Part shown: piece after piece, positions 399-20,134 of the stretch
Numbering within the stretch: the stretch's first letter is position 1
Layout: every line of letters begins with the position of its first letter
IMG/VR virus record: IMGVR_UViG_3300042731_004230
Span: 1 to 21,528 of that record
Reading direction: 5' to 3' (one strand)
DNA: 21,528 nucleotides
Origin: a virus
Translations under genes and position numbers: made by a program
Notes under the pieces: model-generated
What the model was told of the DNA's origin: nothing
Database searches by the model: none
The model's input: only the letters and a program-made list of their open reading frames with translations

Positions 399-3038
399 AT
401 GGCATCAGTAACTCAGCGGATCGGAACCTATCTAGGTGGGGTTTCAAAACAATCAGATGATAAAATGCTACCAGGTCAGGTCCGTGAATGTTACAACGGA
501 TTTCCTGATGCTACATATGGGCTGACAAAAAGACCTGGTTTTGAGCACATTCTTAATCTTGCATCAGGTTCCAGTTACGGTAGCAGAAAATGGTTTTATA
601 TCAAACGTGATGATGACGAAGAATACATTGGCGTAATTAAAGAGACTGGTATTGAGATCTGGAATGCACTGTCAGGTGTTCAAGCTACTGTCACATACCC
701 TGACGGGATGGGCTACTTAAATGGTACAAGGGATAATTTTAAAATTATTACTGTTCAAGATACCAGCATCATCATTAATACTTCCATAGAAGTGGCTGCA
801 GATCAAGCGGTTACTGATGCAAACTACGATCCGCATCGTCAAGTAACCCTTGTTCTTGGGTCTGTTCTCGCGGGTGAAGATTATCAGGTCGATATTACTG
901 TCAATGGGAATACTGAAACGGTAACATATTCTGCAACCAGTTCCAGTACAGTACCAGATGCTCTTGAAAGTTTTAAAACAGATATTGAGGGCCTTACCGC
1001 AACAGACCACGCTGGCATCACTGTCAACCAATATGCAAACAGCCTTGAATTAGTACATACCGCTGACATGGATGTCCACGCAACTGGTGGACTTACAGGC
1101 CTAGATTTTGTAGCAATTGAAGATGTTGTCACTACCGCTTCTGATTTGCCTGTACAGTCTGATCATGGAAGGCTTGTTAAAATTGTTTTAACTGGTGCTG
1201 GTGACGCTGATTATTGGGTCAAATTTGTAGCACACAATGGTGTGGGTGGTGAAGGTTTTTGGGAAGAAGCGCTCGATCCTACGGTTTCAGTGGGGCTAGA
1301 CAATTCCAAAATGCCTCACGAACTTATCAACCCAAGCCTAGACACATTTACATTTAGGCAAATCGATTACGTAGACAGAAAAGTTGGTAACGACGATACT
1401 AACTCGATGCCGAGTTTTGTTGGAAAAAATATTACTGGTGGTTTCTTTCACAACAATCGTCTTGGTTTCATTTCACAAGACAATGTGATAATGAGTCGGT
1501 CTGCTGACCCATACAATTTCTTCTTTACTACAGCTCAAACGGTTATTGATTCTGACCCAATCGATATTAGCTGTTCTTCGATTAGACCAACGTCTCTCAA
1601 CTCTGTTTTGCCTACCGCTCAGGGTGTTGTGTTGTTTAGTGAGAACCAACAGTTTATCCTGTTTTCTGATACAGGTGTGCTGACACCAGCGTTGGCGACT
1701 ATTAGGACGTTGTCTAACTACCAAATGGATCAGCAAATTGAACCTGTGGATGTTGGTACTAACATTAATTTTGTCAGCAAGACGCCAGGTTACAGCCGTG
1801 TCTTTAGCATGATTACACGTGGTCAGCAGGAAAACCCTCAAGTGCTAGACACTTCTCGTGTTGTGAAGGAATGGATTTCACCGAGTGTTGATGCAATGGT
1901 TTCCAGCCCACAAAATTCCTTGATTGCCCTCAGTGGTCAGACACTAAAAGAGGTGTTTTTGTTCCGTTATTACAACGACGGAGAAAAGAACCTTATGGAA
2001 TCTTGGGTCAGCTGGATTATGCCAGGTGCGGTTCAGTTTATAGCTTGTGATTCAGATGACATGTATGCAGTTACAAGACATGGAAATGATTTTGTACTGC
2101 TAAAAGCGGCGCTGAGCCAAAGCCCAGAGCAAGCTATCATTGTCAATAACAGGGGAGAAAAGGTAAACCCGTGCATTGACATGTACAAAAACATCCCTGC
2201 TTCTCATGTTATTTATGACGCAACCAACAACAGAACTAAATGCTACCTGCCCATTATTGACGATCAAAGCTTGACTCCAATCATTGTTATTAAGGGTGAC
2301 ACAAGTAGCGGTGACTTTGTTGAGTCAGGATTTACAATTACACCAAAACGTTTTACTGACTCAGCTGGACCCAATGCACCAACACTTGAGTCTTATTTTG
2401 AAATTCCAAACAAAAACCTGACGGCAACTGGTGAAGGCGCTCTTGATGTTGCTGATGATGTTGTTGTAGGTTATAAGTATAATTTTGACGTAGAACTGCC
2501 CCGCACCTACTACAGAACTGAAAATAGAATTACAGATTTTACAGCTAATCTCACCATTGCACGTATGAAGTTTGCAGTTGGTTTGTCAGGTATGATGGGA
2601 TTTAAGGTAGAACAAAACGGACGTTTGCCGTATAGTGTTCAGTTTACAGGCGATGGAACGACAACAGTTTTTGACTTCAATAAAAATGATTTAGATTATG
2701 CTGACAGATCTGATGTCAAAGTCAGTATTAACGGAGTTAACGAAACAGCATTCCAGTTTCAGTCTGATACAAGGATTTCATTTACTAATGCTCCCGCAAA
2801 TGGTGCTGTTATTAAATTCTACATGGACGAATGGTTTGTTGTAGAGCCTGTTGTAGAAGCAAACGAGTATCTAGCTAACGACGTTTCACTAAACAACGAC
2901 ACTGTATTCACCATACCTATCCACCAACGCACTGAAAATTTCAGAGTAAAATTGTTTAATAATTCACCTTTCCCAGTTGCAGTAAATGCCATGATGTGGG
3001 AAGGACAGTACACACCACGATTCTATAGGAGGGCTTGA
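399..3038 (+). CDS. gp12: Tail tubular protein B (T7 gp12-like tail nozzle)
   Basis: This 879-residue protein matches the tail nozzle protein of T7-like phages (T7 gp12 is 794 residues), which forms the distal conical tail through which DNA leaves. Family features are the N-terminal QRIGTYLGGVSKQ and the KRPGFEHIL segment, the central YWVKFVAHNG and FWEEALDPTVSVGLD region leading to KMPHELI, and the NNRLGFISQDNVIMSRS segment (propeller-like core). An inserted beta-rich region of about residues 145-250 precedes the YWVKF motif. Residues about 748-812 look like the N-terminal domain of the tail fiber encoded downstream, starting FTGDGTTTVFDF. The ATG follows the previous stop with no space and no Shine-Dalgarno, so translation is probably coupled to gp11. 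The TGA overlaps the ATG of the next gene. Confidence 0.93.
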   Translation: MASVTQRIGTYLGGVSKQSDDKMLPGQVRECYNGFPDATYGLTKRPGFEHILNLASGSSYGSRKWFYIKRDDDEEYIGVIKETGIEIWNALSGVQATVTYPDGMGYLNGTRDNFKIITVQDTSIIINTSIEVAADQAVTDANYDPHRQVTLVLGSVLAGEDYQVDITVNGNTETVTYSATSSSTVPDALESFKTDIEGLTATDHAGITVNQYANSLELVHTADMDVHATGGLTGLDFVAIEDVVTTASDLPVQSDHGRLVKIVLTGAGDADYWVKFVAHNGVGGEGFWEEALDPTVSVGLDNSKMPHELINPSLDTFTFRQIDYVDRKVGNDDTNSMPSFVGKNITGGFFHNNRLGFISQDNVIMSRSADPYNFFFTTAQTVIDSDPIDISCSSIRPTSLNSVLPTAQGVVLFSENQQFILFSDTGVLTPALATIRTLSNYQMDQQIEPVDVGTNINFVSKTPGYSRVFSMITRGQQENPQVLDTSRVVKEWISPSVDAMVSSPQNSLIALSGQTLKEVFLFRYYNDGEKNLMESWVSWIMPGAVQFIACDSDDMYAVTRHGNDFVLLKAALSQSPEQAIIVNNRGEKVNPCIDMYKNIPASHVIYDATNNRTKCYLPIIDDQSLTPIIVIKGDTSSGDFVESGFTITPKRFTDSAGPNAPTLESYFEIPNKNLTATGEGALDVADDVVVGYKYNFDVELPRTYYRTENRITDFTANLTIARMKFAVGLSGMMGFKVEQNGRLPYSVQFTGDGTTTVFDFNKNDLDYADRSDVKVSINGVNETAFQFQSDTRISFTNAPANGAVIKFYMDEWFVVEPVVEANEYLANDVSLNNDTVFTIPIHQRTENFRVKLFNNSPFPVAVNAMMWEGQYTPRFYRRA
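3027..3032 (+). promoter_or_regulatory. Strong ribosome binding site for gp14-like gene
   Basis: AGGAGG lies 5 bases before the ATG at 3038, inside the last codons of the gp12-like gene. It decides the start: the TTG at 3035 would be only 2 bases from it. It is the only full Shine-Dalgarno I found at a gene start in the window. Confidence 0.75.
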
Positions 3039-4096
3039 TGTTTAATCCAAAACAAAATATACTGGACCAGCAGCTTCAAGAGTCTGGATTAGAGGCAAAT
3101 ATATTCGACGCTATCGCTGATATTTTCACTGGCGGTGCGTCAACACAAAACAAACACGCTAAAAAAGTAAGTAAAGAGACTAATAAATACAACGCTGCTG
3201 TCTATAAATATGAAGGTGAAGAGCTAGACCGACGTTATAACTATGAAGTCGAAGGTCTGGAAATCCAAAGAGGGAATCTTTTACAAGATCTACAGTTCCA
3301 AGCCAACACCAGGCAGCAGGATTGGAATTACGGGATGGCAATCCGTGATTTTGAGTTTTCTCAGGATATGCGGGCTTACGAACAGTCTGTCGCGCAAGCT
3401 GCAGCCCAGCAATCATTCAACGCAATGGCCGCAGAATTTGCCAACTTGCAGGCAGATCGGCATTTGATGGAGCAACAGATTGAGCTAGAGCTTAGCGGGC
3501 AAGAAACACTGCTTGCATACACCGCTCAAGCCCACGGCCTAATGATGAAAAAGAAAAAGACTAAAGCAGCGGGGGTTTCACAACTCCGTAAAGCTAGTCT
3601 TTCTAGTCTAAAGGCACAGGGTCAGGCTGCAGCTCGTGGTCAAAGCGGTAGAAGTGCTGGTAAAACTTTGAATGCAATCCAAGCTGAGACCAACGCTGTT
3701 GAAAGTGAGATTGTTGAGGAGTTGATGTCAGACACAAAACAAATAGACATGGATTTGCTTGTATCTAAAATGCAAAATATGCAAGACAACTTGGCGTTAG
3801 AGTTAAGCAAAAACAACCTAATTGCTGCTGACACGCTAAACCGGCAGCAAATCTCACTCCAGCGGCAGCAGGCAGATTTACAAGCACAAGCTAGTGTCAT
3901 GCTCAAACCCCAACTTATGCCACCACTACCTAAGCCTATGGCTTTGCCGATTCCTCAGATGCAGGATATTTACGAGCCTAAGCAAGGTCCTAAACCGATG
4001 AAGAGCATCCCGTATCAAGCTAACATTGCCGGTGCCTTCTTCCGAAATAGTCTGAACATTGCCACCCAGGTTGTCGGAATGACCGGAGGCGGTTAA
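3038..4096 (+). CDS. gp14: Internal virion protein, gp14-like (coiled-coil ejection protein)
   Basis: A 352-residue protein in the position of T7 gp14 (196 residues), one of three inner-core proteins ejected to build a channel through the cell envelope. The middle (about residues 45-160) is rich in Gln, Ala, Glu and Arg and reads as long amphipathic helices or coiled coil. A basic KKKKTKAAG stretch is followed by an ARGQSGRSAGKTLNAI segment, which I recognise from cyanophage podovirus proteins at this locus, then further Gln-rich helices and a Pro/Met-rich tail (residues about 288-328). No enzyme motif is visible. The ATG at 3038 is chosen over the TTG at 3035 because of the AGGAGG 5 bases upstream. 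It overlaps the gp12 stop as TGATG. The assignment rests on position and composition more than on conserved sequence. Confidence 0.8.
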   Translation: MFNPKQNILDQQLQESGLEANIFDAIADIFTGGASTQNKHAKKVSKETNKYNAAVYKYEGEELDRRYNYEVEGLEIQRGNLLQDLQFQANTRQQDWNYGMAIRDFEFSQDMRAYEQSVAQAAAQQSFNAMAAEFANLQADRHLMEQQIELELSGQETLLAYTAQAHGLMMKKKKTKAAGVSQLRKASLSSLKAQGQAAARGQSGRSAGKTLNAIQAETNAVESEIVEELMSDTKQIDMDLLVSKMQNMQDNLALELSKNNLIAADTLNRQQISLQRQQADLQAQASVMLKPQLMPPLPKPMALPIPQMQDIYEPKQGPKPMKSIPYQANIAGAFFRNSLNIATQVVGMTGGG

Positions 4097-4111: not shown

Positions 4112-6724
4112 ATGCCAAAAAATTACAAGACATACAGTTCGCCGGGCAGTTTTGGGCAATTTCAAGTCAAGGTTCCTGACCAAACTGGCAAGATTCAACG
4201 GCAAACAGAAAAAACAATTAGGGGCATGGACCGTGCCCGGCAGTTTGAAAAGGAAAATCAAGAGATTTTTATGCGTGCACAACGCCTTGTAAATTCTTTT
4301 GATGAATCCGTTAGACAAACAAATTTCAAGATGCAGTCACTAGAACGTCAGTCTTTTAAAGACGCGTTGGACCGTGACTACAAAATCCAGATGGACAATC
4401 TGGACCAACAAAATAAAGCAAGGCAAACTGATTTAGAAAACATCGCACAGTTTAGCCAGACAGCAGCAGGCTTAGTTGGCCAGTATTTAAAAGACCAAGA
4501 GGAAAAGAAAGTCGCTGCTGCCCATGATGTCATTTCCAGAACGGGCGTCACCTTCAAAGAAATGGTGGCATTCCAAAAAATGGATGACAACCTTACGCGT
4601 TCAGAGTTTGGTGCGCACGACGCTGTCCAGCAAATGTTTGGACCTGATGCTGACTCAAAGCTTATCGACGGTATGTTTGCGGTCTACCAAAACCGTAATA
4701 CAAAACGTTGGGTGGAACACCAACAGCTGTACCAAAACAGCCTTGGCAAGTTTCCAGCTTTTATGGAAGAAAAGATTAGAGCCAAGCAGCTTGAAGACAA
4801 TGAAAGAATCACTGATTTTGATGCATTTCTAGCTAACGTCAAGCGTGAGTTTATGGAAATTAATTTCATAGGCAATGCGCGGCCTGAAGTGCTAAATGGT
4901 GCGGGTGTTTATGCTAAGCTAAATGAACTTGTAAATAATCGACGCAATGTTTTTTTACAGGAACGTCGGAAGCTTCAAGGTGAAGAACTTAGTACCGATC
5001 GTCAAAACGCGTTTGCGGTTGAATACAACAAATCAGGTATTGCAGGCTTAGTCCGTTGGAACAGCACAAATCCATCGTTTGAAAAACGCGAAGATCTACT
5101 GGAATTTTTAAAGAAAAAAGTAAAAATTACTGGACCGTATGCGCTTGGAATCGAAGACTTAGATCGACTTCTAGACTACGAAAATGGCGGTTCTAACGGT
5201 AAAACCTTAGGGGAATCTTTTCCATCTTTTGCTACTGAAGTAGAGCTTTTAAAAGATGAAATTTTAGAACGCGACACTCAATATGAAAGGCAAAAAGAAG
5301 CCCAGCGTGAACGTGATTTTGACGATGAAGTGCTTCGTCAAGCTGATAGGTTGGGTTTAGACAGAGACGGACTTACTGCAAAAGATGTCAAGTTAATTGA
5401 AAATGACATGTACTCAAGACCTGAATATTTTGGGATCAGTACAGATATTTTTGCCGATCTTATGCGTTTATCCACTGACGGACAAAGAGCGCGTCAAACT
5501 GAAACAGTTAATGAGCAGCTTTTTCAGCTTGGCCAGTTGACCCCTGAATACGTTAGAGGTGGTCATTATCTAAATTCTGCGGATTTTGATAAATGGCTTA
5601 GACTTGCTGAATCCGATCGTCAACAGTTTTCTGAAAACAACTTAAAAGAAGTACATTTAAAAATTCAAGCTGCTTTTGAAGGTGATCCTAAAATACGGGC
5701 AAATAAAAATGCTTTTGGTAAATACAACGATGTAACTTACCAGCTGCAACTCGCAGAATTTAAAAGAAACTACAAGAAATACTACCGCCAAATTCAGCTA
5801 TCGAAGCCCGACATGGCTAATAACGACGTTTCAGAAAGAGCGTTGTCTTTGGTTGGTAAGGACATTCAAGAGGTAGTTTCTAATATTGGCGCTGATGGTG
5901 CAATCAAAAAGTACAAAATTAGCAGTACAGATGAGTTTGCAGATCTTGATACGCTGACAAAAGCAGGTATCCAAAAACTGGGTGACATTCAAAAAGTTCT
6001 AAGAGACAAAACTTTATCCGCAGAAATCAGATATGAAAGGGTAGCAGAAATGCTTGATGCAACAGAATTAGAACGAGCACTTACAAACTTCGGCAGTAAG
6101 CAGTGGTCAATGCCACCGGCCATTGAATACATCGCAGAAGAGACAAACAAAAACCCCCTGCAGGTTCTCGAAAAAATTGCCCCGTACATTCCCGGCAATC
6201 TCCGTCTTCAAGTTGATGCACTTAGAGACGAACAAAAACAACGTTATACTGATTTTGAAGTCACACCATATTCGTCAATACGTAACACCCTACGTACGCC
6301 CCAGCGAACTGGACGTGCAAATGTAGGTGACACTAAAACTGGAGCTTCTGCACCAATCCGTCCATCTATGTTAAAAGTTGTCCAGTATGTCAGCGGTGAC
6401 CCTGCTATTAAAGAAACAGCAGACGGTAAGCGCATTGTCTATGACAACGGCGACGGACCGCGTGGACACGGCGGACGTAACTACCATAATCACTATGAAT
6501 TTGCGACACAAGAAATGGCTGCTACTGCAAAAACTTTGTTTGAGCAAGCTGGTTTCCGTGTCACATCTTACATTCGAGAGCACGACACAGACAGCGCACA
6601 TTCACGTGGTGTAGCACTGGACGTAGCTCCCGATCCAAACTTGCCCTATACCGACGAAGCTGAAGCTAGGTGGTCAGCCGCCGCTAATGCTGTAATCGGA
6701 TTTGATCCTTTAGCAAATGAATAG
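4112..6724 (+). CDS. gp15: Internal virion protein, gp15-like, with C-terminal M15-like metallopeptidase domain
   Basis: An 870-residue protein in the place of T7 gp15 (747 residues), an ejected inner-core protein. Residues about 1-700 are charged and mostly helical. After a low-complexity linker (about 715-750) a separate domain covers about 753-870. It holds GHGG (785-788), a His-x-His pair (H792, H794) and S828-A-H-S-R-G-V-A-L-D837, a perfect match to the SxHxxGxAxD metal-site motif of M15 / D-Ala-D-Ala carboxypeptidase-like enzymes. H830 and D837 would be two zinc ligands; the usual third His is not downstream, so H792 or H794 may serve. Inferred role: cutting cell-wall peptides during DNA entry. 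The start is the first ATG after a 15-base gap, with no good Shine-Dalgarno. The 3' end overlaps the next gene by 8 bases. Confidence 0.85.
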   Translation: MPKNYKTYSSPGSFGQFQVKVPDQTGKIQRQTEKTIRGMDRARQFEKENQEIFMRAQRLVNSFDESVRQTNFKMQSLERQSFKDALDRDYKIQMDNLDQQNKARQTDLENIAQFSQTAAGLVGQYLKDQEEKKVAAAHDVISRTGVTFKEMVAFQKMDDNLTRSEFGAHDAVQQMFGPDADSKLIDGMFAVYQNRNTKRWVEHQQLYQNSLGKFPAFMEEKIRAKQLEDNERITDFDAFLANVKREFMEINFIGNARPEVLNGAGVYAKLNELVNNRRNVFLQERRKLQGEELSTDRQNAFAVEYNKSGIAGLVRWNSTNPSFEKREDLLEFLKKKVKITGPYALGIEDLDRLLDYENGGSNGKTLGESFPSFATEVELLKDEILERDTQYERQKEAQRERDFDDEVLRQADRLGLDRDGLTAKDVKLIENDMYSRPEYFGISTDIFADLMRLSTDGQRARQTETVNEQLFQLGQLTPEYVRGGHYLNSADFDKWLRLAESDRQQFSENNLKEVHLKIQAAFEGDPKIRANKNAFGKYNDVTYQLQLAEFKRNYKKYYRQIQLSKPDMANNDVSERALSLVGKDIQEVVSNIGADGAIKKYKISSTDEFADLDTLTKAGIQKLGDIQKVLRDKTLSAEIRYERVAEMLDATELERALTNFGSKQWSMPPAIEYIAEETNKNPLQVLEKIAPYIPGNLRLQVDALRDEQKQRYTDFEVTPYSSIRNTLRTPQRTGRANVGDTKTGASAPIRPSMLKVVQYVSGDPAIKETADGKRIVYDNGDGPRGHGGRNYHNHYEFATQEMAATAKTLFEQAGFRVTSYIREHDTDSAHSRGVALDVAPDPNLPYTDEAEARWSAAANAVIGFDPLANE

Positions 6725-9700
6725 CTATTTTCGTGGTGATCCAGGTGCGCCTGAGATCGACGATGAGTTCATCCGCCAAAGAGAGGCGGAAGAAGAAGAA
6801 CTCAAACGACAGCAGCAAGCTGAACAAAAAGAAGCTACGGCTTCAACAGAAAAACCCACAGAAAAACCCACAGAAAAACCAACTGAAGAACTGACACCGG
6901 TTACAAATGACCCTCAAGCTGCTGAACAAGTAAAACAACAAGTGCAGGAGGAAGAAGAAGAACAATCAACAGTAGAGTTTGTAGGCGAACTTGCAGCAGC
7001 ACCTGTTGTGGGTGTCACTGACTTTGCAGCTGACTTTCTCAACCTTGTGCCTGGGGTAGAGATTCCTAAAGTACCAGAGTTTGAAAGCGAAGTCACCCAG
7101 ACTGTCCGTAATATTTCATCAATTGTCCTTCCTACTATTGGTTTGGGGGGATTTGGTGCTGCAGGACTAGCTGGTAAAGCTGCAACCATGGCTGGAAAGT
7201 ATAAGAAAGCTAAATTTCTTGTCGATCCAATGGTCAAAAAGATTGGTGGCATGGCCTTTAATGCTGGTGCTGGAGCTTTTGTTGACTATACAGTTGAAAT
7301 TAACCAAAATGACGACAACCTGGCCGGTACTTTAAAGCAAAACTTTGGGTGGGCAGGTTGGATTCCAGATGATCTGGCGACGATGCCTACAGATGGTGCA
7401 GACGTAAAGCGTGCTAAAAATGTTACTGAAGGTGTTTACCTAGGTGTTGGTACCGACGTTTTAATCGGCGGTGTACGTTTGCTACAACACTACCGCGGCC
7501 TTCGTACTAAATTTATTCCCAAATCAGAAAAGGCCAAGCCTGTTGCAGAAAAGCTTAATGCACGACAAGAGTTGTCACCAGAAGAGCTTGTCAATGATTC
7601 GGCAGCCAAGCGTGAAATCGCACTTGATGATATTGGCAATACTAACTACAAAAAGGCTTTAGAAAAATTTGACGGCGACGTTGAGTTGGCACTTTCTGAG
7701 CCGATTCGTGGTGTACATGACTTGTACGGCGAGCAAGAAATCATTGCTAGAGGCACTGACGGTGACATTAATCTAGCTGCAGCTGACGCTTACCAGGTTG
7801 CAACAAACGCTGGTGGAAGTATTTATGGCCGCGTTGGGTCAATGCTTTCTGACTCATTAATTGACTACGGGCTTGATCTAAAAAATGACATGCACGTTGT
7901 TGTGCGTGGACTTGCAGACGATCTGCGTGAAGTTGACATGGACATCAAATACCCTAATGGTGACTATGCAACGGCTGCTGATATTGCCAAAGTCGGTGAG
8001 GATATGGCAGGTGAGCTGGCTGGAATGCCTTTCGAGAAAATGAAACAAATTCTTGAAAAGGAACTCACAGAAAAGTCAGGAGAAATGGGTGTTAAAACAC
8101 TTAGTTCTACTGGCATTGAAGCTGCCAGGGTTGCGATGAAAGATCATATTAAAACTTTGATTGATCTAGATGAAGTCAAAGCTGAGGCATACCTTTCAAC
8201 TTCTTTGGCAGGGCAGATTTCCGATACTGCACAAGGTATTCGACGTACTGAAGGTACACCGGCTATTGACATCGCTTCAGATGACTTGATTAAAAGGCTT
8301 GAATACCTTATGGCTATGCGCGGTCGTGCTGTCTATGTACGTGGTCGTGCTCTTAATTTGACGAATATGTGGAATCGGATGCGTGCACCCGGTACTCCAT
8401 ACTCTAAAGCTAACGCACAAGCCTATGCAAGCCGCATTGATAGAATTATTAAAGAAGAATCCAATGATACCTTACGAGCTATTGAACGGATTCGGTTGGA
8501 CGCAAAGAACACTGCAGATGTCTTGCGTGAAGTCAAAGATACAAACCGTGAGTTCTTTAACGCTTTGATGTTGGCTTACGAGCTTACTGACGGCAAAGTG
8601 AGTACCATGTCGTCTTTGAACAAATATCTCGAACAATCTACCGGTATTGTTAGAAAATCACTTTACGATCAAGATCCAGGAACGCAATCACTGATTCTTC
8701 AAGGGTTTTGGTCAAACGTTTATAACTCAACGCTGAGTGCACTGTCTACACCGATTAAAGCTGGCATTAGTAACTTTGCTGGTCTAGTTGAAAAACCAAT
8801 TGGTGCGATGATTGGCGGCTTGAGATACGGAGAAGGTCAGCAAATCCGACGTGCCATGTTCCAATATAGTATGAATTTGGACGTGCTACAGGATTCGTTG
8901 AAATACATGGGAGAAGTGTTCAAGCGTAGTGCAACAGAACCTAATGTAGGTGATTTGGCCCGTGAAAACTTCTTTGCTAAAAATCAAGATCAAATAGAAA
9001 TCCTAAGAAGAATTGCTGAAGGTAAAAAACTCGAAAACAAAAACGGTCCAATGGTCGCTTACGAACGCATCAAAGCGATGAATGATCTAGCAAACCACCC
9101 TTGGCTGCGTTTTGGTAACCGCGCTATGCAAGCCCTTGACGGATTTACACAACACATGGTCGCTAACGCAGAAGCCCGTGGACGGATTTTTGACCTTGTC
9201 ACCGACAACGGAGCTAAACCATTTGACAAAGCTGCCGGTGAAAGATGGGTAGATTTGTTCATGAAGAGCATGAAAGATGAAACGGGACTGATTAAGGATG
9301 ATGTAGTTAAGAGAACTGCAGCTGAAATTTCAATGTCAGTAGATAATGATGCTACTAATTTGATTTCAGGTTTGATCACTAAATTCCCAGTCATGAAACC
9401 GTTCATGCTGTTCACTAAAACACCTGTAAACGATCTTATTTTGTCTGGATCTTACTCGCCCCATAACTTATTTATGGAAGAGTATAAAAACTTTTTCCTT
9501 AAAGCAGACGAAATTAGTAAAGAACAAGTTGAATCTTTGCTTCAGAAACGTGGCTATAAGGTCGGAGATCTTACACAAATGTCTGACGCACAAAAATACC
9601 AACGGTATGCAGAGATACGTGCTGATCTTTATGGACGTTCCGCAATTGGTGTATTGATTACAACTGCTGCTATCGGTTTGTTCATGACCGACCGTATTAC

Positions 9701-10712
9701 AGGTAACGGTCTTGCTGATAAAGAGACACAAGCTTTGCGCCGCGAGACTGGCTGGAAGCCCCGGTCTATCAGATTGCCTAACGGTGACTGGGTCAGTTAT
9801 GACAACTTAGGTCCAATTACTAATTGGTTTGCTGCACTTGCTGACGTTGCCGATAACTTTGATTCTTTGACGCCTAACGATATTGCCACACAATTCCGAA
9901 AGCTTGCTTTCATTCTGTCCGCATCAGTTACTGACAAATCATTTATGGCTGGTTTAGAGCCTTTTATTGATGTAGCACGTGGCGATGTCGGTGCAATCAA
10001 TCGTTGGCTCGGCAGTTTTGCTGTCGCCGCCAATGCTCCCGGATCAAGCCTTATGGCAGAGATGTCTAGGTTGATGGATCCTGGACTGAAAGAAGTACAG
10101 CAAACAACATTTGACATAGCTCGTAACCGTCTGCCTCTTTTGAAAAGCCAAATTCCACAGAAATATGACTGGATTGACGGAACTCGTATTGGGTACCCAG
10201 ACAAAGCTGGCAACATTTACGAAGGTTTCATGACTCGTGTATGGAACAACTACATGCCTTGGAAAGTTAGCGGAAAAATTTCTGACGAAAAGAAATTCCT
10301 GCAGATGGTTGAGTTTGATGCCCGACCTACACTGCGTACAAACGGCAAAGGCGTTGAGTATACCCCTGCGCAGCGCTCTGAAATCACCAATATTATGGGC
10401 CGTGAAGGGTTTTTTAAAGAAGGTATTAAGCGTGTCATGCAGTCTTACGATGCGAAAGAGTTCAGAAAAGCATACATGGATTGGGTTAATGGCGGATTTC
10501 CCATTGATAAAAAACAACTTGCAGGCCTACACAAAAAACTACGTTTTGAATTAAGAAGCGCTATGCACGCTGCAGCAGCCCTGTCAAGTGAAAAAGACAG
10601 CATTGCACAAAAGCAATACATTAACGATGTCATTGCAATGTACTACGAAAGGGACATGAGAAAAGAGGCTCGGGAATTCCTGGATCGTATGGAAAAACGT
10701 ATTTCTTTCTAA
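6717..10712 (+). CDS. gp16: Internal virion protein, gp16-like (large ejection protein)
   Basis: At 1,331 residues this is almost the length of T7 gp16 (1,318), the largest ejected core protein, and follows the gp15-like gene as in T7. The N-terminus (about 1-80) is acidic and Gln/Glu-rich with a TEKP tandem repeat (residues 44-55) and looks disordered. A Gly/Ala-rich hydrophobic stretch lies near 138-160 and another, GVLITTAAIGLFM, near 976-988; both could contact membrane after ejection. Other stretches, such as PWLRFGNRAMQALDGFTQHM and FPVMKPFMLFTKTPVNDLI, are typical of cyanophage proteins at this locus. The T7 N-terminal lytic transglycosylase domain is not seen: there is no catalytic-Glu segment or GLMQ-like motif. 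The start overlaps the gp15 stop by 8 bases and lacks a Shine-Dalgarno. Confidence 0.9.
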   Translation: MNSYFRGDPGAPEIDDEFIRQREAEEEELKRQQQAEQKEATASTEKPTEKPTEKPTEELTPVTNDPQAAEQVKQQVQEEEEEQSTVEFVGELAAAPVVGVTDFAADFLNLVPGVEIPKVPEFESEVTQTVRNISSIVLPTIGLGGFGAAGLAGKAATMAGKYKKAKFLVDPMVKKIGGMAFNAGAGAFVDYTVEINQNDDNLAGTLKQNFGWAGWIPDDLATMPTDGADVKRAKNVTEGVYLGVGTDVLIGGVRLLQHYRGLRTKFIPKSEKAKPVAEKLNARQELSPEELVNDSAAKREIALDDIGNTNYKKALEKFDGDVELALSEPIRGVHDLYGEQEIIARGTDGDINLAAADAYQVATNAGGSIYGRVGSMLSDSLIDYGLDLKNDMHVVVRGLADDLREVDMDIKYPNGDYATAADIAKVGEDMAGELAGMPFEKMKQILEKELTEKSGEMGVKTLSSTGIEAARVAMKDHIKTLIDLDEVKAEAYLSTSLAGQISDTAQGIRRTEGTPAIDIASDDLIKRLEYLMAMRGRAVYVRGRALNLTNMWNRMRAPGTPYSKANAQAYASRIDRIIKEESNDTLRAIERIRLDAKNTADVLREVKDTNREFFNALMLAYELTDGKVSTMSSLNKYLEQSTGIVRKSLYDQDPGTQSLILQGFWSNVYNSTLSALSTPIKAGISNFAGLVEKPIGAMIGGLRYGEGQQIRRAMFQYSMNLDVLQDSLKYMGEVFKRSATEPNVGDLARENFFAKNQDQIEILRRIAEGKKLENKNGPMVAYERIKAMNDLANHPWLRFGNRAMQALDGFTQHMVANAEARGRIFDLVTDNGAKPFDKAAGERWVDLFMKSMKDETGLIKDDVVKRTAAEISMSVDNDATNLISGLITKFPVMKPFMLFTKTPVNDLILSGSYSPHNLFMEEYKNFFLKADEISKEQVESLLQKRGYKVGDLTQMSDAQKYQRYAEIRADLYGRSAIGVLITTAAIGLFMTDRITGNGLADKETQALRRETGWKPRSIRLPNGDWVSYDNLGPITNWFAALADVADNFDSLTPNDIATQFRKLAFILSASVTDKSFMAGLEPFIDVARGDVGAINRWLGSFAVAANAPGSSLMAEMSRLMDPGLKEVQQTTFDIARNRLPLLKSQIPQKYDWIDGTRIGYPDKAGNIYEGFMTRVWNNYMPWKVSGKISDEKKFLQMVEFDARPTLRTNGKGVEYTPAQRSEITNIMGREGFFKEGIKRVMQSYDAKEFRKAYMDWVNGGFPIDKKQLAGLHKKLRFELRSAMHAAAALSSEKDSIAQKQYINDVIAMYYERDMRKEAREFLDRMEKRISF
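6846..6881 (+). repeat. 12-base tandem repeat, three copies, in gp16-like gene
   Basis: The unit acagaaaaaccc occurs three times head to tail; the third copy differs only in its last base. Each unit encodes TEKP in frame, so copy changes would not shift the frame. It lies in the disordered N-terminal region of the gp16-like protein. Confidence 0.9.
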
Positions 10713-10724
10713 CTTAACACACTA

Positions 10725-13700
10725 ATGGCTAACACATTCATTGAATACTCGGGTGATGGTTCGACGACGGACTATAACATCCCCTTTAGATACATCAAAC
10801 AGGCAGAAGTTAAAGTCACCATCAATGGCGTTGCTACAACTGCCTTTACATTCCCTACTGCTGGTACAATCCGTCTTACTGATCCCACAAACCCTGATAC
10901 TAATAACGCCACGATTCGCGTTTTCCGGGAGACAGATGTTTCTGATTTGAAAGCAGAATTCTTTGCCGGTTCTGCTATTAAAGCGGAGGATCTTAACGAT
11001 AACTTCAAGCAAAACAACTATGCTGTTGAAGAACTGCGTGAATCTACTTGGGATTTTGACACTGAAACCATTAAAACTAATGAGACATGGTCAAGTGTTG
11101 ACACTCAAATCGCAACGACAGCAGCCGTTGACAACAGAATTGATGCGAAAATCGACACCGCTATCACGAGTGACATTGGTACTGATGGCACAGGCATCAC
11201 TGTTACAGATGACGGGGACGGCACCATTACACTTGGTCTGGGCTCAGGTGGCATCGATCTCGACCGCATTAACCCAAATAACATCCTTAATGCTCAGGAA
11301 CAGCTAACTGCTACACCTTCTGACCTTGAAATCTACACCGCACGGGCGGCTTCTGAACGCCACGATAACTACGTCCAAGTCCCTACACCCTCAACAGTAG
11401 GGAGGACAGTTGGACAGTTTTGGTTCCAACCTGACGATGACCAAACACTGCACATTTGGAATGGAAGCAGCTGGAGACCTGTTACTTCTGGTGGTACTTT
11501 TACAAGCCTTCAAAAAGTAATTTACGTTGATGGTAATAACGGTGACGATGCAGCTGACGGTCATAGAATTTCATCACCAATGCGTACTATTAAGGCTGCT
11601 GTAAATGCAATTAATGCTGACGCAGAAAACGGTGATGGTAGTGTCATTCTGGTCTCACCTGGTATTTATCAAGAAATAGCACCTATTGACATCCAAAGAC
11701 GTGACGTTTCAATTATTGGTGCTTCTATCCGTAACACTGTTGTACACCCAACTCCTAACACACAAGATCAAGAAGGGGAAGACGGTCTTGGTGCAAACAC
11801 AGACGGGGCTTTGTTCCGCGTCAACAGCGGCACTTACCTAGCTAACATGACCTTCACTGGCATGAAAGCCAGCGGTACGCGAGGTGAATCAGGCAGTTTA
11901 TGGGAAGACGCAACATATGGTCTACCCGCTAACCAAGGTTGGAACGTTGCGTTCTACCCTAATGCAATGATTGTCAAATCACCGTACATTCAAAACTGCA
12001 CTAATTTTTCTGATTCAGAAATTGATAACAGCAATTTAAATTGGTACGGTTCATCGCAGACCCAAGGTCGTGCTGGTGATACTACTTCTGAAATGACGGG
12101 TGGCGGTCTTCTTATTGACGGAAGTGTACCACATCCTAACTCACCTTTGCGTTCTATTGTATGTGATAGCTACACACATACTGGCCTCAATGCCCCCGGT
12201 ATCTTTGTTACCAACAACGGTTATTGCCAAGCAACGTCTAGTTATGCATTCTTTAACCACTTCCACATTGCATGTCTAAATGGCGGTCAAGCTAACCTGG
12301 CTGCATCGACCTCTGACTTTGGTGATTTTTCAATTATTGCCGATGGCAAGTCACCTTCTGCAATCTTTACCGCAACTACAAGCGGTACTTCCGCACCTGG
12401 TGCAACTACCTTTACTATTAATGCACCAACTGCTGCGTCTAATTGGCATGGTGATGTTACAAAACCGCAGGATAACATGGTCGTGGAAATCACTAATAAT
12501 GGTGTAACCACGGTTTACCCTATCCTATCTTCCGTCGCTAACGGAACCGGTTGGGATGTAACTATCAGCCGTCCAGATCCTAACAATCGTCTCCAAAACT
12601 TAGGTTTGGTTGGTGATCCTACAGATGCTGCCGATACAATTGCCGACCTTACTTCGGTATCGTTCTACCTCCGTTCTATGGTTGCTTCTAGCGGCCACAC
12701 GATGGAATACGTGGGTAGTGGCACTGATTATCGTGCATTACCTGAGAATGGCGGTGTGCCCGATGACACTAAACAAGCAACTGAACTTAATGGCGGTAAA
12801 GTTTGGGCAGCTATTACAGACCACCGTGGTAAATTTACAGTCGGTGATTCATTTAGTGTTGACCAACAAACTGGATTTGTTCAAGTTGCTGCAGGTGCTT
12901 TTTCGATTGAAACACTGATTACGGATCTCAACGTTAATGGTAACAGCATCACGAGTGACAGCGCTAACCCTAATATTGTCCTTGATCCAAATGGTGCAGG
13001 TACTGTAGATGTAAGTACTTCTAGAATTACTAGTGTTACAGATCCTACTAATGCCCAAGACGCTGCTACTAAAAATTATGTAGATGGTTTTATCCAAACA
13101 GACGGCTCTAGTACCGCCACCACTAACAATACCTCTTTCTTTACTACACAAGCGTCTGATACACGGTACTTCCGCCAAGACAGTACTGAAACTATCGCGT
13201 CTGGTGATACTTGGAGCAGCGCAGATACACACGTAGCTACTACTGGTGCAATTAATGCAAGGATTGTTGACCTACTCGACAATATTGGTGGTTTTGTCCC
13301 TATTGCAAACGAAACCAGTTTTCCGACAACAAACCCTGACACTAACGACGGTTCTGGTACAATTGTCAGTATTGCAAGTCTGACTAATAGTCATACCCAT
13401 GTCGGAGGTACTGTAACTATCAGTAATGGTGCTGGTTCTGGCAATACTGTTACCATCACTGGTTGTCCTGATCTCCCTGCTGGATTTGGTGTTCTTGTCG
13501 AAACTACCACTACACTGCACACCTACAATTTCCACAGAATTGTACCTAAAGCTACTGAAGTTACTACGGTTGCTGGGATTAGCGGTGACGTAACCACAGT
13601 TGCAGGCGTCTCTGCTGATGTAACTACGGTTGCCGGTATTCACAATAATGTAACCGCTGTGGCTGGTGATGAGGTTGACATTGGACTAGTTGCTGGCAGT

Positions 13701-14918
13701 ATTAGCGCCGTTAGTACGGTTGCTACTGATATATCTAAAGTCAATACTGTTGCAGGTGATCTTAACGGTAATAATACTATTGGCACTGTTCATACAAATA
13801 TTAATGAAGTAAATGCGGTTGCGACTGACATTAGTAGTGTAACCACTGTAGCTACTAGCCTTAATAGCGACACTAATATCGCAACGGTTGCTGGCAGTAT
13901 TGCCAATGTAAACCATACTGGCGGTAGTATCACTAATGTAAACCACGTTGGCGGTAGCATTGGTAACGTAAACACGGTTGCCACCGACCTCAGTGGAACC
14001 AATACTATTGGAACGGTTGCTACTGATCTTAGTGGTACCAATACTATCGGCACGGTTGCTGGGATTAGCGGTGACGTAACCACAGTTGCAGGTGACACCC
14101 AAGATATTGGCACTGTTGCCGGCAAAAGCGCAGAAATTACGTCACTCGCTGCTGTAGATACTGAAATCGGTAGGCTTGGAACAACAGCAGCAGTTGCTGA
14201 CTTGAGTTCGCTCGGAACTGCACATAACGTGGCTTCTATGAGCAATTTAGGTACGGCAGCTAATGTAACTAACATGGGCATATTGGCTAATACATCGAAC
14301 CTAGCTAACATTAATCTGGTTGGTGGTTCTATTGTCAACGTCAACGCTACTGGCGGCGACATTACTAACGTTAATCTAGTTGCTGGTTCTATTAGTAACG
14401 TAAACACGGTAGCTACTAACCTTAGTGGAACTAATACTATTGGAACAGTTGCAACTAACATTAGCGATGTAAATAATTTCGCTGATCGTTATCGTATTAG
14501 TGCGTCTGCACCGACAGCAAGCCTCGACAATGGTGACCTGTGGTGGGATTCCAGTAACAATAAACTGATGGCGTACGACTCAAATAATTGGGTTTCTGCA
14601 ACGCAATTGGAAACTATTCCACAAAACCTACAAACCGGTTCTAGTAGTTATACCCTACAGGCTAGCGACGTAGGTAAACACATTAATGTGACACAAGCTG
14701 GGGTAACTGTTCCTAATGGCGTGTTCAGTATTGGTGAAGCAGTTTCTGTCTTCAATGACAGCTCTTCTGATGTAACCATTACTGCACCTAGTTCTGGAAA
14801 CATGTACTCAGCAGGTACGTCTGACACTGGAGACCGTACACTAGCTCAACGTGGGCTTTGTACTATTCTCTGCGTCGGCAGCAGTGACTTTGTTATTAGC
14901 GGTGCGGGTATTAGCTAA
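10725..14918 (+). CDS. gp17: Tail fiber protein (T7 gp17-type N-terminus, beta-helix body, VA-repeat stalk)
   Basis: This 1,397-residue protein is the tail fiber, much longer than T7 gp17 (553). Residues 1 to about 150 match the T7 tail-fiber N-terminal domain that binds the tail (IEYSGDGSTTDYNIPF, then VTINGV). From L262 the motif YVDGNNGDDAADG followed by TIKAA and repeated beta-strands (to about 650) suggests a pectate-lyase-like right-handed beta-helix. A DTRYFRQDS module starts near 811 and contains a near copy (821-840) of the neck motif at 113-132. Residues about 942-1250 are VAG/VNTVATDLSGTNTIGT-type repeats. The C-terminal cap holds GDLWWDSSNNKLMAYD near 1270. It starts 12 bases after gp16 without a Shine-Dalgarno and ends in a TAATG overlap with the next gene. 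Host-surface binding is inferred from the family. Confidence 0.93.
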   Translation: MANTFIEYSGDGSTTDYNIPFRYIKQAEVKVTINGVATTAFTFPTAGTIRLTDPTNPDTNNATIRVFRETDVSDLKAEFFAGSAIKAEDLNDNFKQNNYAVEELRESTWDFDTETIKTNETWSSVDTQIATTAAVDNRIDAKIDTAITSDIGTDGTGITVTDDGDGTITLGLGSGGIDLDRINPNNILNAQEQLTATPSDLEIYTARAASERHDNYVQVPTPSTVGRTVGQFWFQPDDDQTLHIWNGSSWRPVTSGGTFTSLQKVIYVDGNNGDDAADGHRISSPMRTIKAAVNAINADAENGDGSVILVSPGIYQEIAPIDIQRRDVSIIGASIRNTVVHPTPNTQDQEGEDGLGANTDGALFRVNSGTYLANMTFTGMKASGTRGESGSLWEDATYGLPANQGWNVAFYPNAMIVKSPYIQNCTNFSDSEIDNSNLNWYGSSQTQGRAGDTTSEMTGGGLLIDGSVPHPNSPLRSIVCDSYTHTGLNAPGIFVTNNGYCQATSSYAFFNHFHIACLNGGQANLAASTSDFGDFSIIADGKSPSAIFTATTSGTSAPGATTFTINAPTAASNWHGDVTKPQDNMVVEITNNGVTTVYPILSSVANGTGWDVTISRPDPNNRLQNLGLVGDPTDAADTIADLTSVSFYLRSMVASSGHTMEYVGSGTDYRALPENGGVPDDTKQATELNGGKVWAAITDHRGKFTVGDSFSVDQQTGFVQVAAGAFSIETLITDLNVNGNSITSDSANPNIVLDPNGAGTVDVSTSRITSVTDPTNAQDAATKNYVDGFIQTDGSSTATTNNTSFFTTQASDTRYFRQDSTETIASGDTWSSADTHVATTGAINARIVDLLDNIGGFVPIANETSFPTTNPDTNDGSGTIVSIASLTNSHTHVGGTVTISNGAGSGNTVTITGCPDLPAGFGVLVETTTTLHTYNFHRIVPKATEVTTVAGISGDVTTVAGVSADVTTVAGIHNNVTAVAGDEVDIGLVAGSISAVSTVATDISKVNTVAGDLNGNNTIGTVHTNINEVNAVATDISSVTTVATSLNSDTNIATVAGSIANVNHTGGSITNVNHVGGSIGNVNTVATDLSGTNTIGTVATDLSGTNTIGTVAGISGDVTTVAGDTQDIGTVAGKSAEITSLAAVDTEIGRLGTTAAVADLSSLGTAHNVASMSNLGTAANVTNMGILANTSNLANINLVGGSIVNVNATGGDITNVNLVAGSISNVNTVATNLSGTNTIGTVATNISDVNNFADRYRISASAPTASLDNGDLWWDSSNNKLMAYDSNNWVSATQLETIPQNLQTGSSSYTLQASDVGKHINVTQAGVTVPNGVFSIGEAVSVFNDSSSDVTITAPSSGNMYSAGTSDTGDRTLAQRGLCTILCVGSSDFVISGAGIS
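13566..13606 (+). repeat. 41-base perfect direct repeat, copy 1
   Basis: Identical over 41 bases to 14052-14092, beginning acggttgctgggattagcgg. The copies start 486 bases (162 codons) apart and are in the same reading frame. Confidence 0.9.
14052..14092 (+). repeat. 41-base perfect direct repeat, copy 2
   Basis: Second copy of the 41-base repeat at 13566-13606, also within the tail-fiber stalk. The identity extends through synonymous positions, unlike most other units of the array. Confidence 0.9.
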
Positions 14919-17440
14919 TGAGTATTATGCAAATGCTGCTTGCAAAAGCAGAACCAATTGACCCATCATTTAATCTTAAATACGCTGAATTTACAGGTTG
15001 GCCTAGAAACACTTTTATACCAGATCCAGACGAGGTTAACAATCCGATCCATTTTACATGGAAACCGGATGGTACTCGTTTATATGTTGTAAATCAAAAT
15101 AGTAGAGTTATTAACCAGTACGATTTGAGTGAACCTTGGGACATAACTACCGCAACTCTTAATGGTTCAATTAATGTATACAACATTTCAGGTGCTCCGG
15201 CTCCGGATCGATGCGGCCAACCTACGTCATGTCAATTTAGAACTGATTCAAATAATTCTTCAAATGATGGAAGTAAATTGTACGTTTACTCTAACCAATA
15301 TAGAAGAATTTTTGAATTTAATTTAAGTACTAATTGGGACATTACTACTGCAAGTTGGTATCAAACCGGAGCTACAGCGACTGAAGCAGCTTTTTATCTA
15401 GAAAATTTTCAGTTCAGTGCTGACGGAAGTGCTTTGTTTATGGTTGACGATAATACGGACACAATTTACCAATATACTTTGTCTACAGCCTGGGATATTA
15501 GCAGTAACAGTGTATCGTATGCAAACAAATCTCTTGGCAGAAACCCTTCGGCAATTGGTACCGGGACAATATTTTTTAGAAAGGATGGCGGTACCCGTGA
15601 TGGTAAAGATATGTGGTGGCTTGACCCTAGCTATCGAAGGATTTACCACTACACCCTAACAACTGCTTACGATATTAGCACTGCAACTTTACAGAGCGCA
15701 TATGGGTCGCTTGGTCTAGAAGTCACTAATCCGTTTGATTTGGTTATTAGCTCTGACGGTAAAAAATTAATTATTTTCGACTCACATAATGATTTATTGC
15801 GTCAATATGAGATAACAACAGCATGGGATGTTAGTACAACACAAAACTGGGTTAAACCATACTCAGAATATCAACATCTAGGTAATATCTCAACAAGAGG
15901 GTTGTACTGGAAAAATGACGGCACGGAATGCTACGTATTAAGTACGTATTTAAACGATTTTGTAGAACGTTATATATGCACCACACCTTGGGACACAACA
16001 ACCCTTTATAACCCACCTAGCAATAGTTCGGATTATTTAACAAAAGATATTAGCAGTCAAACACAAGTCGGTGAAGACATATTTTTCTCCAACGATGGTT
16101 ATTACATGTTTATTGTTGCTAGGACTTATGTTTATCGTTACGATTTAAGTATAGCATGGAATATATCAACTGCTACGTATTCTCAGAGTCTTTATGTTGG
16201 CTCTGAAGACAGCAACATGACTGGTATTCATTTCAGGGAAGATTCGTCAGGTAATGGTCAGGTGATGTATTTATCTGGCAGGCAATACGATAAAGTTTAC
16301 CAATACAGTAGTAATACCCCATTTGCTTTAAATACTTTTTCGTACGACAATAAGTCCCTTGCCTTACGCACCGAACAATACACCCCAGAAGACGTTTCTC
16401 TTAGCCCAAACGGAGACTACTGTTATACAGTAAACAAAGACGGCGATATTTTACAATCTAAACTTAGCACTCCTTGGGACATCTCGACAGCAACTAAAGA
16501 ACTTTCATACTATGGTCCGATGTATATCGGGGGTGATCAACACAGCCTGTACATGAAAAAAGACGGTAGCAGCTTGTATGTGGCAGATAGCATTAGAGTT
16601 CATCGCCACAGAATATCTCTTTCACCGTACGCACACCCTGGCATCGGCTCATCTACTGCTGAATCAGCTCAGCAATACCCTTGGTATGGTTTTGCATCGG
16701 TTGGCGGACTTTACTTTAAACCTGACGGGACGAAGATGTATATTGTCAGTGCCCTGAGCCAAACTAGCTATATTATGAGGCACTACACTCTCCTTAAACC
16801 GTGGGACCCCAACGGCGGTTATGTGCTTGAGTATACTTATACATTTCCTATACAATCCGGTGAAAGTTACCACAGTGTACAAGACGTTTTCTTTAAACCC
16901 GACGGTAAAACACTTTACTATTGCGAAAATTATAGTAGATATATTGTTGCACACACTTTATCGACAGCTTGGGATTTAAGTACTATTTCTTCCTCTTATA
17001 CAACATACGACCACGGCGCTAACTACAATACTGCTGTAGGGTTACATTTTTCACCTAATGGTAAATACATGTTCACCTTGGGTGGCAGCCGCCGCGTCAG
17101 AAGGTTTGAACTCAGCACCCCTTGGGACATTACTACTGCTACGCACAACAGTGCAAACAGATCTGATGCATTGTTTTCTAGTCATATTGACCCGTATGGT
17201 ATTCACTTTAAATACGATGGAACTGTATTGTATGCAATAGATCAAGGTACCGATACCATTTATCAGTGGAATTTATCTACGCCATGGGACGTCAGTAATG
17301 TTACCAACAGTAATTATACTGATTCTTTAGCTGTAAGTACTATCGATAATCGACCGGCATTTATGTTTATAAGTGATAGCGGGACAAATTTGTATTTTAA
17401 CGGCGATCAAAATCACAAACTCTACCACAGAACACTATGA
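14918..17440 (+). CDS. Propeller-like repeat protein, probable tail-fiber partner or receptor-binding protein
   Basis: This 840-residue protein is built almost wholly of repeats of about 55-60 residues. Each has a half like FKPDGTKMYIV and a half like IYQYTLSTPWDISTATY. I count 14 complete units (one weak, at S-L-S-P-Y-A-H-P) and a fifteenth that stops after the first half at the C-terminus. This is the pattern of beta-propeller blades, and similar repeats occur in virion proteins of marine phages. No signal peptide, catalytic motif or membrane segment is visible. The ATG overlaps the fiber stop (TAATG), so the two are probably made together; I infer a fiber-tip or adhesin role. It could instead be a separate decoration protein. 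The end overlaps the next gene as ATGA. Confidence 0.85.
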   Translation: MSIMQMLLAKAEPIDPSFNLKYAEFTGWPRNTFIPDPDEVNNPIHFTWKPDGTRLYVVNQNSRVINQYDLSEPWDITTATLNGSINVYNISGAPAPDRCGQPTSCQFRTDSNNSSNDGSKLYVYSNQYRRIFEFNLSTNWDITTASWYQTGATATEAAFYLENFQFSADGSALFMVDDNTDTIYQYTLSTAWDISSNSVSYANKSLGRNPSAIGTGTIFFRKDGGTRDGKDMWWLDPSYRRIYHYTLTTAYDISTATLQSAYGSLGLEVTNPFDLVISSDGKKLIIFDSHNDLLRQYEITTAWDVSTTQNWVKPYSEYQHLGNISTRGLYWKNDGTECYVLSTYLNDFVERYICTTPWDTTTLYNPPSNSSDYLTKDISSQTQVGEDIFFSNDGYYMFIVARTYVYRYDLSIAWNISTATYSQSLYVGSEDSNMTGIHFREDSSGNGQVMYLSGRQYDKVYQYSSNTPFALNTFSYDNKSLALRTEQYTPEDVSLSPNGDYCYTVNKDGDILQSKLSTPWDISTATKELSYYGPMYIGGDQHSLYMKKDGSSLYVADSIRVHRHRISLSPYAHPGIGSSTAESAQQYPWYGFASVGGLYFKPDGTKMYIVSALSQTSYIMRHYTLLKPWDPNGGYVLEYTYTFPIQSGESYHSVQDVFFKPDGKTLYYCENYSRYIVAHTLSTAWDLSTISSSYTTYDHGANYNTAVGLHFSPNGKYMFTLGGSRRVRRFELSTPWDITTATHNSANRSDALFSSHIDPYGIHFKYDGTVLYAIDQGTDTIYQWNLSTPWDVSNVTNSNYTDSLAVSTIDNRPAFMFISDSGTNLYFNGDQNHKLYHRTL

Positions 17441-19560: not shown

Positions 19561-19805
19561 ATACATCTACGTACTACAAACAAAACCCTGCTGCACGCAA
19601 ACGACGCCTAAAACAGCAAGGTGACTACAACAAAACTAAAAAAGGACTCATGATTCGTACCGCTGCTAACAAGCTTAACCGCAAGCTTGGCACTTACGGT
19701 AACGGAGACGGTAAAGATGCTTCACACACTGGACCTAACAAAGGTAAAACAGAGAATGCATCTGCTAACCGCCGCCGTCCAAGATTGAAGCAACGCTACG
19801 CCTAA
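19557..19805 (+). CDS. Small basic protein of unknown function
   Basis: An 82-residue, strongly basic protein with three positively charged clusters: AARKRRLKQQ near the N-terminus, KLNRKLGTYGNGDGKDASH in the middle and RRRPRLKQR at the end. There is no Cys pair or fold I can name. The middle part looks conserved in similar cyanophage proteins next to terminase genes. Its charge fits binding to DNA, and its place between the small terminase and an HNH nuclease suggests a packaging or head-DNA role, but this is inferred. ATG at 19557 is coupled to the previous stop (ATGA), and its own stop gives TAATG with the HNH gene. Confidence 0.8.
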   Translation: MNTSTYYKQNPAARKRRLKQQGDYNKTKKGLMIRTAANKLNRKLGTYGNGDGKDASHTGPNKGKTENASANRRRPRLKQRYA

Positions 19806-20134
19806 TGACCCCCTTACTTCCAACGCCTGACCACTACTTACAAAATCTAATAACCATGACATCCTCTGAAGCAAAGCGCCTTTGGAGGCGCAGCATTAAA
19901 GAGCACTTTGGCTGCACATGTGTTTATTGTGGAGAAACTTATGAATTACACGAACTTACTTTGGATCACGTTCACCCTAGAACCTTTGGTGGTGAAGATA
20001 TTACAAGCAATCTCGTACCTAGCTGCAAACAGTGTAATCAGGCAAAAGGAAGTACCAATTGGTTGTCTTGGATGAGACAAACATTTGGAATCAATCGACT
20101 TAGAGAAACTCTTATTCTTTCACACATTAATTGA
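19805..20134 (+). CDS. HNH endonuclease
   Basis: A 109-residue protein with a complete HNH domain: zinc ligands C39-V-Y-C42 and C74-K-Q-C77, the DHVHPRTFGG catalytic loop (D54, H55), N69 in ITSNLVPSC and N78 in CNQAKG. The final position is Asn, so this is an HNN-type variant, still normal for the family. It lacks any extra DNA-binding domain seen in homing endonucleases, so it may be a free-standing HNH that helps the terminase, as known for several tailed phages, or a mobile homing nuclease. The start at 19805 is coupled to the previous stop (TAATG); an in-frame ATG at 19856 is a plausible alternative that would begin MTSSEAKRLWRR. Confidence 0.92.
   Translation: MTPLLPTPDHYLQNLITMTSSEAKRLWRRSIKEHFGCTCVYCGETYELHELTLDHVHPRTFGGEDITSNLVPSCKQCNQAKGSTNWLSWMRQTFGINRLRETLILSHIN

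Follow-up and report, generated by a model that had tools for sequence, protein, structure and literature searches.

A putative LAS-type zinc peptidase domain with permuted ligand order at the C-terminus of a gp15-type ejection protein from a probable cyanopodovirus

Introduction

In phage T7, the wall-opening enzyme is a lytic transglycosylase at the N-terminus of gp16, an ejected core protein, and gp15 builds a periplasmic tube on ejection (PMC8954989). An enzyme on a gp15-like protein has a precedent in gp35 of phage K1E (PMC8954989), and in mycobacteriophage TM4 a tape-measure protein is known to contain a hydrolase motif (PMC1796659). In our analysis, a Phage_lysozyme domain was located at aa 776–910 of the 982 residues of K1E gp35, and K1E gp36 gave none.

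The LAS group is named after lysostaphin, D-Ala-D-Ala peptidase and sonic hedgehog. Its canonical order is α-β-β-α, followed by a β-β hairpin carrying the HxH motif. In the hedgehog N-domain ShhN, the zinc ligands are H141, D148 and H183, and the base is E177 (PMC4102407).

We analyzed a virus record of 21,528 bases (the window, meaning the whole stretch of DNA) that encodes a gp15-type protein. We propose that the last ~120 residues of this protein form a zinc-dependent LAS-type peptidoglycan peptidase with a permuted ligand order, which would cut murein at ejection, and we assign this reading a probability of roughly 0.74.

Gene order and probable host

The window starts within a tail tubular protein and continues into a T7-type structural block, in which synteny gives the order nozzle (gp12), gp14-like, gp15, gp16 and fibre. 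The gp12-like nozzle protein (399-3038) matches PF25675 at E 3.3e-185. Between the nozzle and gp15 lies an internal virion protein at the gp14 position (3035..4096, plus strand), which matches phrog_20153 of unknown function (E 5.9e-46). It is followed by the gp15-type internal core (ejection) protein of 870 aa (4112..6724, plus strand) and the gp16-type internal virion protein of 1331 aa (6717..10712, plus strand; phrog_6651, E 1.7e-253), and then by a fibre protein whose T7-fibre N-terminus was recognized by Pfam (10725-14918). The gp15 assignment is based on gene order and on homology to cyanopodovirus gp15: the tblastn matches are the gp15-position proteins of S28-C3, S-B28, 7B11-B and S-CBP4, and the protein matches phrog_24152 (E 2.2e-14), which also takes in the S-CBP3 copy within an unnamed full-length protein. 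The relatives of gp16 are mainly cyanopodoviruses (S-B28 at 48.9%, also WH11-B, S-CBP4, S-RIP2 and others), which makes a marine picocyanobacterium the probable host.

Several other features of the window were recorded. The nozzle protein has a C-terminal extension (aa 747-806) that matches the T7 tail-fibre N-terminal domain (PF03906, E 7.1e-6), and the same type of domain starts the fibre, so the fibre-attachment module seems to be duplicated onto the nozzle. The C-terminal half of the fibre is rich in degenerate repeats with the pattern TVAGDxxxVxTVATDLSGTNTIGTVA, and the adjoining 840-aa protein (14918-17440) is a long β-propeller-like repeat array with Lactonase, PD40 and WD40 matches. 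A small HNH endonuclease (19805-20134; PF01844, E 1.1e-12) is encoded downstream of the structural genes.

The C-terminal domain of gp15 and its conserved residues

The C-terminal LAS/M15-like domain was delimited to aa 748-870 (6353..6721, plus strand) from a 34-row alignment, an AF2 model and its homologues; the elements described below lie on the same strand. The first conserved strand is VVQYVSGD at aa 756-763 (6377..6400; predicted strand 9-14 of the model), and its last residue, D763, is a candidate catalytic base or structural acid. The second element is GHGGRNYHNH at aa 785-794 (6464..6493; model strand 46-50), with invariant H786, N790, Y791, H792 and H794; its HNH at 792-794 is the sole HxH within gp15 and is the proposed source of the third metal ligand. 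The third is SAHSRGVALD at aa 828-837 (6593..6622), which aligns with SLHYEGRALD of hedgehog and with the SxHxxGxAxD of M15_3; its H830 and D837 are proposed as zinc ligands. It is the sole SxHxxGxAxD in the proteome of the window. In randomized sequence the motif came up in 5 cases among 20,000 shuffles of gp15 and in 18 among 3,000 shuffles of all proteins of the window. The C-terminal helix starts at E851 (6662..6664), a position occupied by Glu in 68 and Asp in 4 of the 72 distinct homologues and thus acidic in every one.

Conservation is stronger evidence for the motif than these shuffle counts. G762, H786, N790, Y791, H792, H794, H830, D837 and P840 are identical in 72/72 distinct homologues; the loci were partly fetched by patterns with NYH[NE]H, so that N790, Y791, H792 and H794 were partly preselected, whereas H786, H830, D837 and P840 were absent from the fetching patterns and their invariance was not preselected. 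Position 763 is Asp in 71/72 and position 824 is His in 55/72. The invariant HxH lies 36-38 residues upstream of H830, and no conserved histidine was found C-terminal to D837 among the 72 homologues. The earlier note had read the SxHxxGxAxD at residues 828-837, with GHGG (785-788) and a His-x-His pair upstream, as part of a metal site whose third ligand would have to come from the upstream HxH; all three elements are present as described, and the lack of a conserved downstream histidine supports this ligand order.

Homologous tips were found on 13 IMG/VR contigs in a close search, at 49 loci with a profile and at 104 with a wider profile. The deposited phages that carry the domain are uncultured S28-C3 and the Synechococcus phages S-CBP3 and S-SKS1, and a Foldseek search of BFVD at E up to 0.001 returned only these three. 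Two scans of 84,980 species genomes confirmed no cellular relative, with patterns tight enough to miss distant ones, and a search of plasmids gave none. The domain is 63-81% identical to that of its relatives, compared with 25-56% for the rest of gp15, and its non-synonymous divergence is about half to a third of that of the rest in most comparisons; in two closer pairs (L009/L013 and L010/L013), domain and rest change at similar rates.

Relationship to hedgehog and M15 peptidases

The domain is not covered by any Pfam or NCBIfam model or by a named PHROG. The best library model is PF13539 (M15_4) at 16.2 bits, below its cut-off of 25, and PF08291 has no match on the window record. A PDB search with the single sequence returned a chance match only. 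When a profile of 34 homologues was compared with all PDB sequences, 24 matches had an E of 10 or less; 23 were hedgehog N-domains, which were also the only chains below 0.2. The best had an E of 0.0023, and a second alignment repeated the result at E 0.0024. The alignment spans ~45 columns over "GrHakgSyHysGqAlDv", the H...D half only. The same half aligned by hhalign with 91 canonical M15 sequences (MepK, RcTitan, Vibrio and Marinomonas phage peptidases and IMG/VR relatives) at P 7.5e-5 to 1.1e-4.

The gp15 domain has the same set of H, D and HxH as the hedgehog N-domain (LAS group; ShhN PDB 1vhh, DhhN 2wfq), and H824 corresponds to H135 of ShhN. However, the HxH lies upstream of the H...D pair in gp15 and downstream in hedgehog, no Glu is found at the spacing of hedgehog E177 (the residue six before H794 is Gly), and hedgehog is a signalling protein whereas gp15 is a phage virion protein. 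The Peptidase M15_3/M15_2 families (PF08291, PF05951; E. coli MepK and phage M15 endolysins) share the SxHxxGxAxD zinc motif, and the podovirus-branch domains also share the preceding TSxxR of M15_3 (hhalign P ~1e-4), but the ligand order differs and those models do not recognize the gp15 domain. Thus, of the earlier description as an M15-like peptidase domain, the M15/LAS-like character held up, with the zinc pair HxxxxxxD inside SxHxxGxAxD, while membership of Peptidase_M15 by library cut-off did not, and the HxH/ExxH strand with the third His that follows the H...D pair in LAS/M15 enzymes is absent from its usual place. The domain is a separate family with the ligand order HxH...HxxxxxxD. 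Literature searches turned up neither a permuted peptidase of the M15/LAS type nor a report of a peptidase carried by cyanophage gp15.

The likeness to hedgehog also raises the possibility that the domain is a catalytically inactive LAS-like wall binder, which has kept the metal site and docks the gp15 tube onto murein. The gp15 domain has no obvious Glu base, the peptidase activity of hedgehog, itself a LAS protein, is not firmly established (PMC4102407), and in S-CBP3 and S-SKS1 the domain accompanies an active-type lysozyme domain. Nevertheless, we consider this unlikely, since the invariant putative ligands together with D763, H786 and the always-acidic position 851 are typical of catalysis, and a mere binder would leave the window lineage without a virion enzyme on gp14–gp16, where Pfam suggests no other wall-related domain.

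Predicted fold and probable permutation

The AF2 model of the gp15 domain (pLDDT 88.8, pTM 0.85) is compact, with the order β-β-β-α-β-β-α, and a second model of the S-CBP3-type copy (pLDDT 91.8, pTM 0.84) is consistent with it. This order is a rotation of the LAS order α-β-β-α-β-β only if the short strand 28-30 is omitted. When the last LAS hairpin is moved to the front, the phage order results, and VVQYVSGD...NYHNHYEF takes the place of the hedgehog hairpin. Because the fronted hairpin reproduces the phage order, we read the domain as a LAS-type peptidase whose ligands are permuted and whose fold is probably circularly permuted.

The structural searches leave some weight to another explanation, namely a metal-dependent hydrolase of an unrelated, non-LAS fold that acquired HxH and HxxxxxxD by convergence. 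Foldseek searches of the PDB with both models at E up to 0.001 returned no LAS structure, and the top 50 rows also contained none; the closest partial matches are to unrelated proteins, arginine kinase (E 0.25) and, for the second model, aminotransferase domains (E 0.018). Rotation of the alignment at every third column against the 91 canonical M15 sequences showed no preference for the permuted order. A permutation would explain the missing match in a search that follows sequential order, yet the missing match also leaves room for another fold. On the other hand, the GxHxxxSxHYxGxAxD stretch matches hedgehog over ~45 columns, a match that takes in an additional His (55/72) located six positions ahead of the zinc ligand His, and canonical M15_3 aligns at P ~1e-4. 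We consider a convergent fold slightly less likely still than an inactive wall binder, and the permuted LAS-type peptidase is retained as the preferred reading.

Domain partners in other proteins

In S-CBP3, the gp15-position protein (991 aa) carries an SLT_3 lysozyme-like domain (E 5.4e-13) followed by the present domain, and SLT_3 likewise directly precedes it at two further loci (L028 and L039). The S-SKS1 protein, from a cyanophage whose baseplate genes are of the T4 type, has a Phage_lysozyme2 tail lysozyme domain (E 1.3e-15) followed by the present domain, and its gene lies among baseplate hub genes. The domain shares a protein with M23 in L033, with GH19 in L050 and with Amidase_2 in one member, and is found within tape-measure-type proteins with TMP_3 in L031 and L044. 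As far as these architectures indicate, its company is that of a virion-associated murein hydrolase. It is very improbable that the domain serves as a structural cap, takes part in maturation, or is a protease whose substrates are phage or host proteins instead of the wall: its presence in tape-measure proteins, with their structural roles, would fit, but its main catalytic companions are wall hydrolases (SLT, lysozyme, M23, GH19 and amidase), and sister phages fill the same gp15 position with wall hydrolases.

gp16 and the C-terminal enzyme position of gp15

The N-terminus of the gp16-like protein is acidic and of low complexity (QREAEEEELKRQQQAEQKE...TEKPTEKPTEKPTEE...EEEEEQ), and no transglycosylase was found by Pfam at E up to 1 in any part of its 1331 aa, whereas T7 gp16, a positive control scored alike, gave SLT at E 1.7e-31. 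Pfam detected no hydrolase on T7 gp15. These results agree with the earlier note, which had placed the T7 wall-opening enzyme on gp16 and described the gp16 N-terminus of the window as acidic sequence in place of a lytic transglycosylase. No hydrolase or SLT was found on the gp16 of S-B28, S-CBP4, S-RIP2, P-SSP7, Syn5, S28-C3 or the window.

The gp15 proteins presented a different picture from gp16. A C-terminal wall-hydrolase domain, some of them sub-threshold, was found in 5/7 other cyanopodovirus gp15s (S-CBP3, S-CBP4, S-B28, 7B11-B and S-RIP2). The tip of S-CBP4 combines SLT and M23, and Hydrolase_2-like tips were found above the cut-off in S-RIP2 and below it in S-B28 and 7B11-B. Syn5 gp15 gave a weak tail-lysozyme match at its tip (E 0.013), and no hydrolase was recognized on P-SSP7 gp15. 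In the window and in close relatives such as S28-C3, gp15 has the present domain alone. Because different hydrolases occupy the gp15 tips across cyanopodoviruses, the C-terminus of gp15 is, on domain content, an exchangeable enzyme slot. The same note had suggested that a peptide-cutting activity took over on a different core protein; a wall-opening role on gp15 is supported by these comparisons, but a one-off event is not, given the five other gp15s with such domains and the K1E precedent.

Within the window lineage, the gp15 domain is the only wall-related domain that Pfam suggests on gp14–gp16, and no glycosidase is visible to Pfam. A degenerate transglycosylase ahead of the domain in gp15 was considered and rejected, as there was no Pfam match and little room before the domain. 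Separately, P-SSP7 gp15 (L160:2559-5072) ends in two KIPNxIGYYVYKNGEWQKSGQRGK-like repeats instead of a recognized hydrolase.

The arrangement resembles that of gp35 of K1E/K1-5 in having a wall hydrolase at the gp15 C-terminus, but the K1E enzyme is a glycosidase of a known family whereas that of the window is LAS-type peptidase-like. S-CBP4 gp15 has a LAS-group zinc peptidase at the same gene position, although it belongs to M23, another family, and stands beside SLT. As with the T7 transglycosylase (PMC8954989), the proposed activity is wall-opening on an ejected core protein; the T7 enzyme is on gp16 and the candidate enzyme of the window on gp15, and the two differ in family and probably in the bond cut. 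It is plausible that a peptidase, as predicted here, cleaves a bond other than that of the T7 enzyme.

Proposed function and significance

In the proposed mechanism, the domain would be arranged with the HxH hairpin first, then a helix and a strand, then the SxHxxGxAxD pair, with a helix at the end. One zinc would be held by H794 (or H792), H830 and D837 and would activate water, with D763 or H786 serving as the base. After the core proteins are ejected into the periplasm, the gp15 tube could present several copies of the tip to murein, and cleavage of stem peptides or cross-bridges would then let the tube and the DNA pass. The tip would thereby stand where other cyanopodoviruses keep wall hydrolases and do the job of the T7 gp16 transglycosylase. 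Of this picture, the analysis establishes the conserved residues and their order, the kinship of the H...D half with LAS peptidases, the domain partners and the lack of SLT on gp16, whereas zinc binding, the geometry of the active site, circular permutation, catalysis, the bond cut and the timing are predicted.

A broader reading, which we favour with less assurance, is that these domains represent a new phage-borne zinc peptidase family built on a circularly permuted LAS fold, with the HxH hairpin moved to the front. It would be found on podovirus gp15, on myovirus baseplate-region proteins and on tape-measure-type proteins, in some cyanophages and many contigs of unknown host, and would be the only detectable core-protein wall enzyme in the window lineage. 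While gp15 proteins that carry an enzyme are already known, an enzyme family with this permuted ligand order is new according to the libraries and literature searched. This analysis names a likely wall-opening enzyme for a lineage of marine phages in which no hydrolase had been annotated among the ejection proteins, and points to the gp15 tip as an exchangeable slot in cyanopodoviruses, where gp16, the enzyme bearer of T7, has none. A LAS peptidase of this permuted kind would mean that a textbook metalloenzyme fold has been permuted in nature. For annotation, the domain can be traced by the motif Y[LV][ST]GD...HGGxNYHxH...SxHxxGxAxDxP, which Pfam, NCBIfam and PHROGs do not recognize as an enzyme.

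The seven-residue spacing between H830 and D837 is kept in nearly all homologues. In L028 (9956-10318), a six-residue insertion (SYHYKSASPDGGLAVDI) separates the His of the putative zinc site from its Asp; it is the sole departure in spacing that we saw and offers a natural test of the metal-site model.
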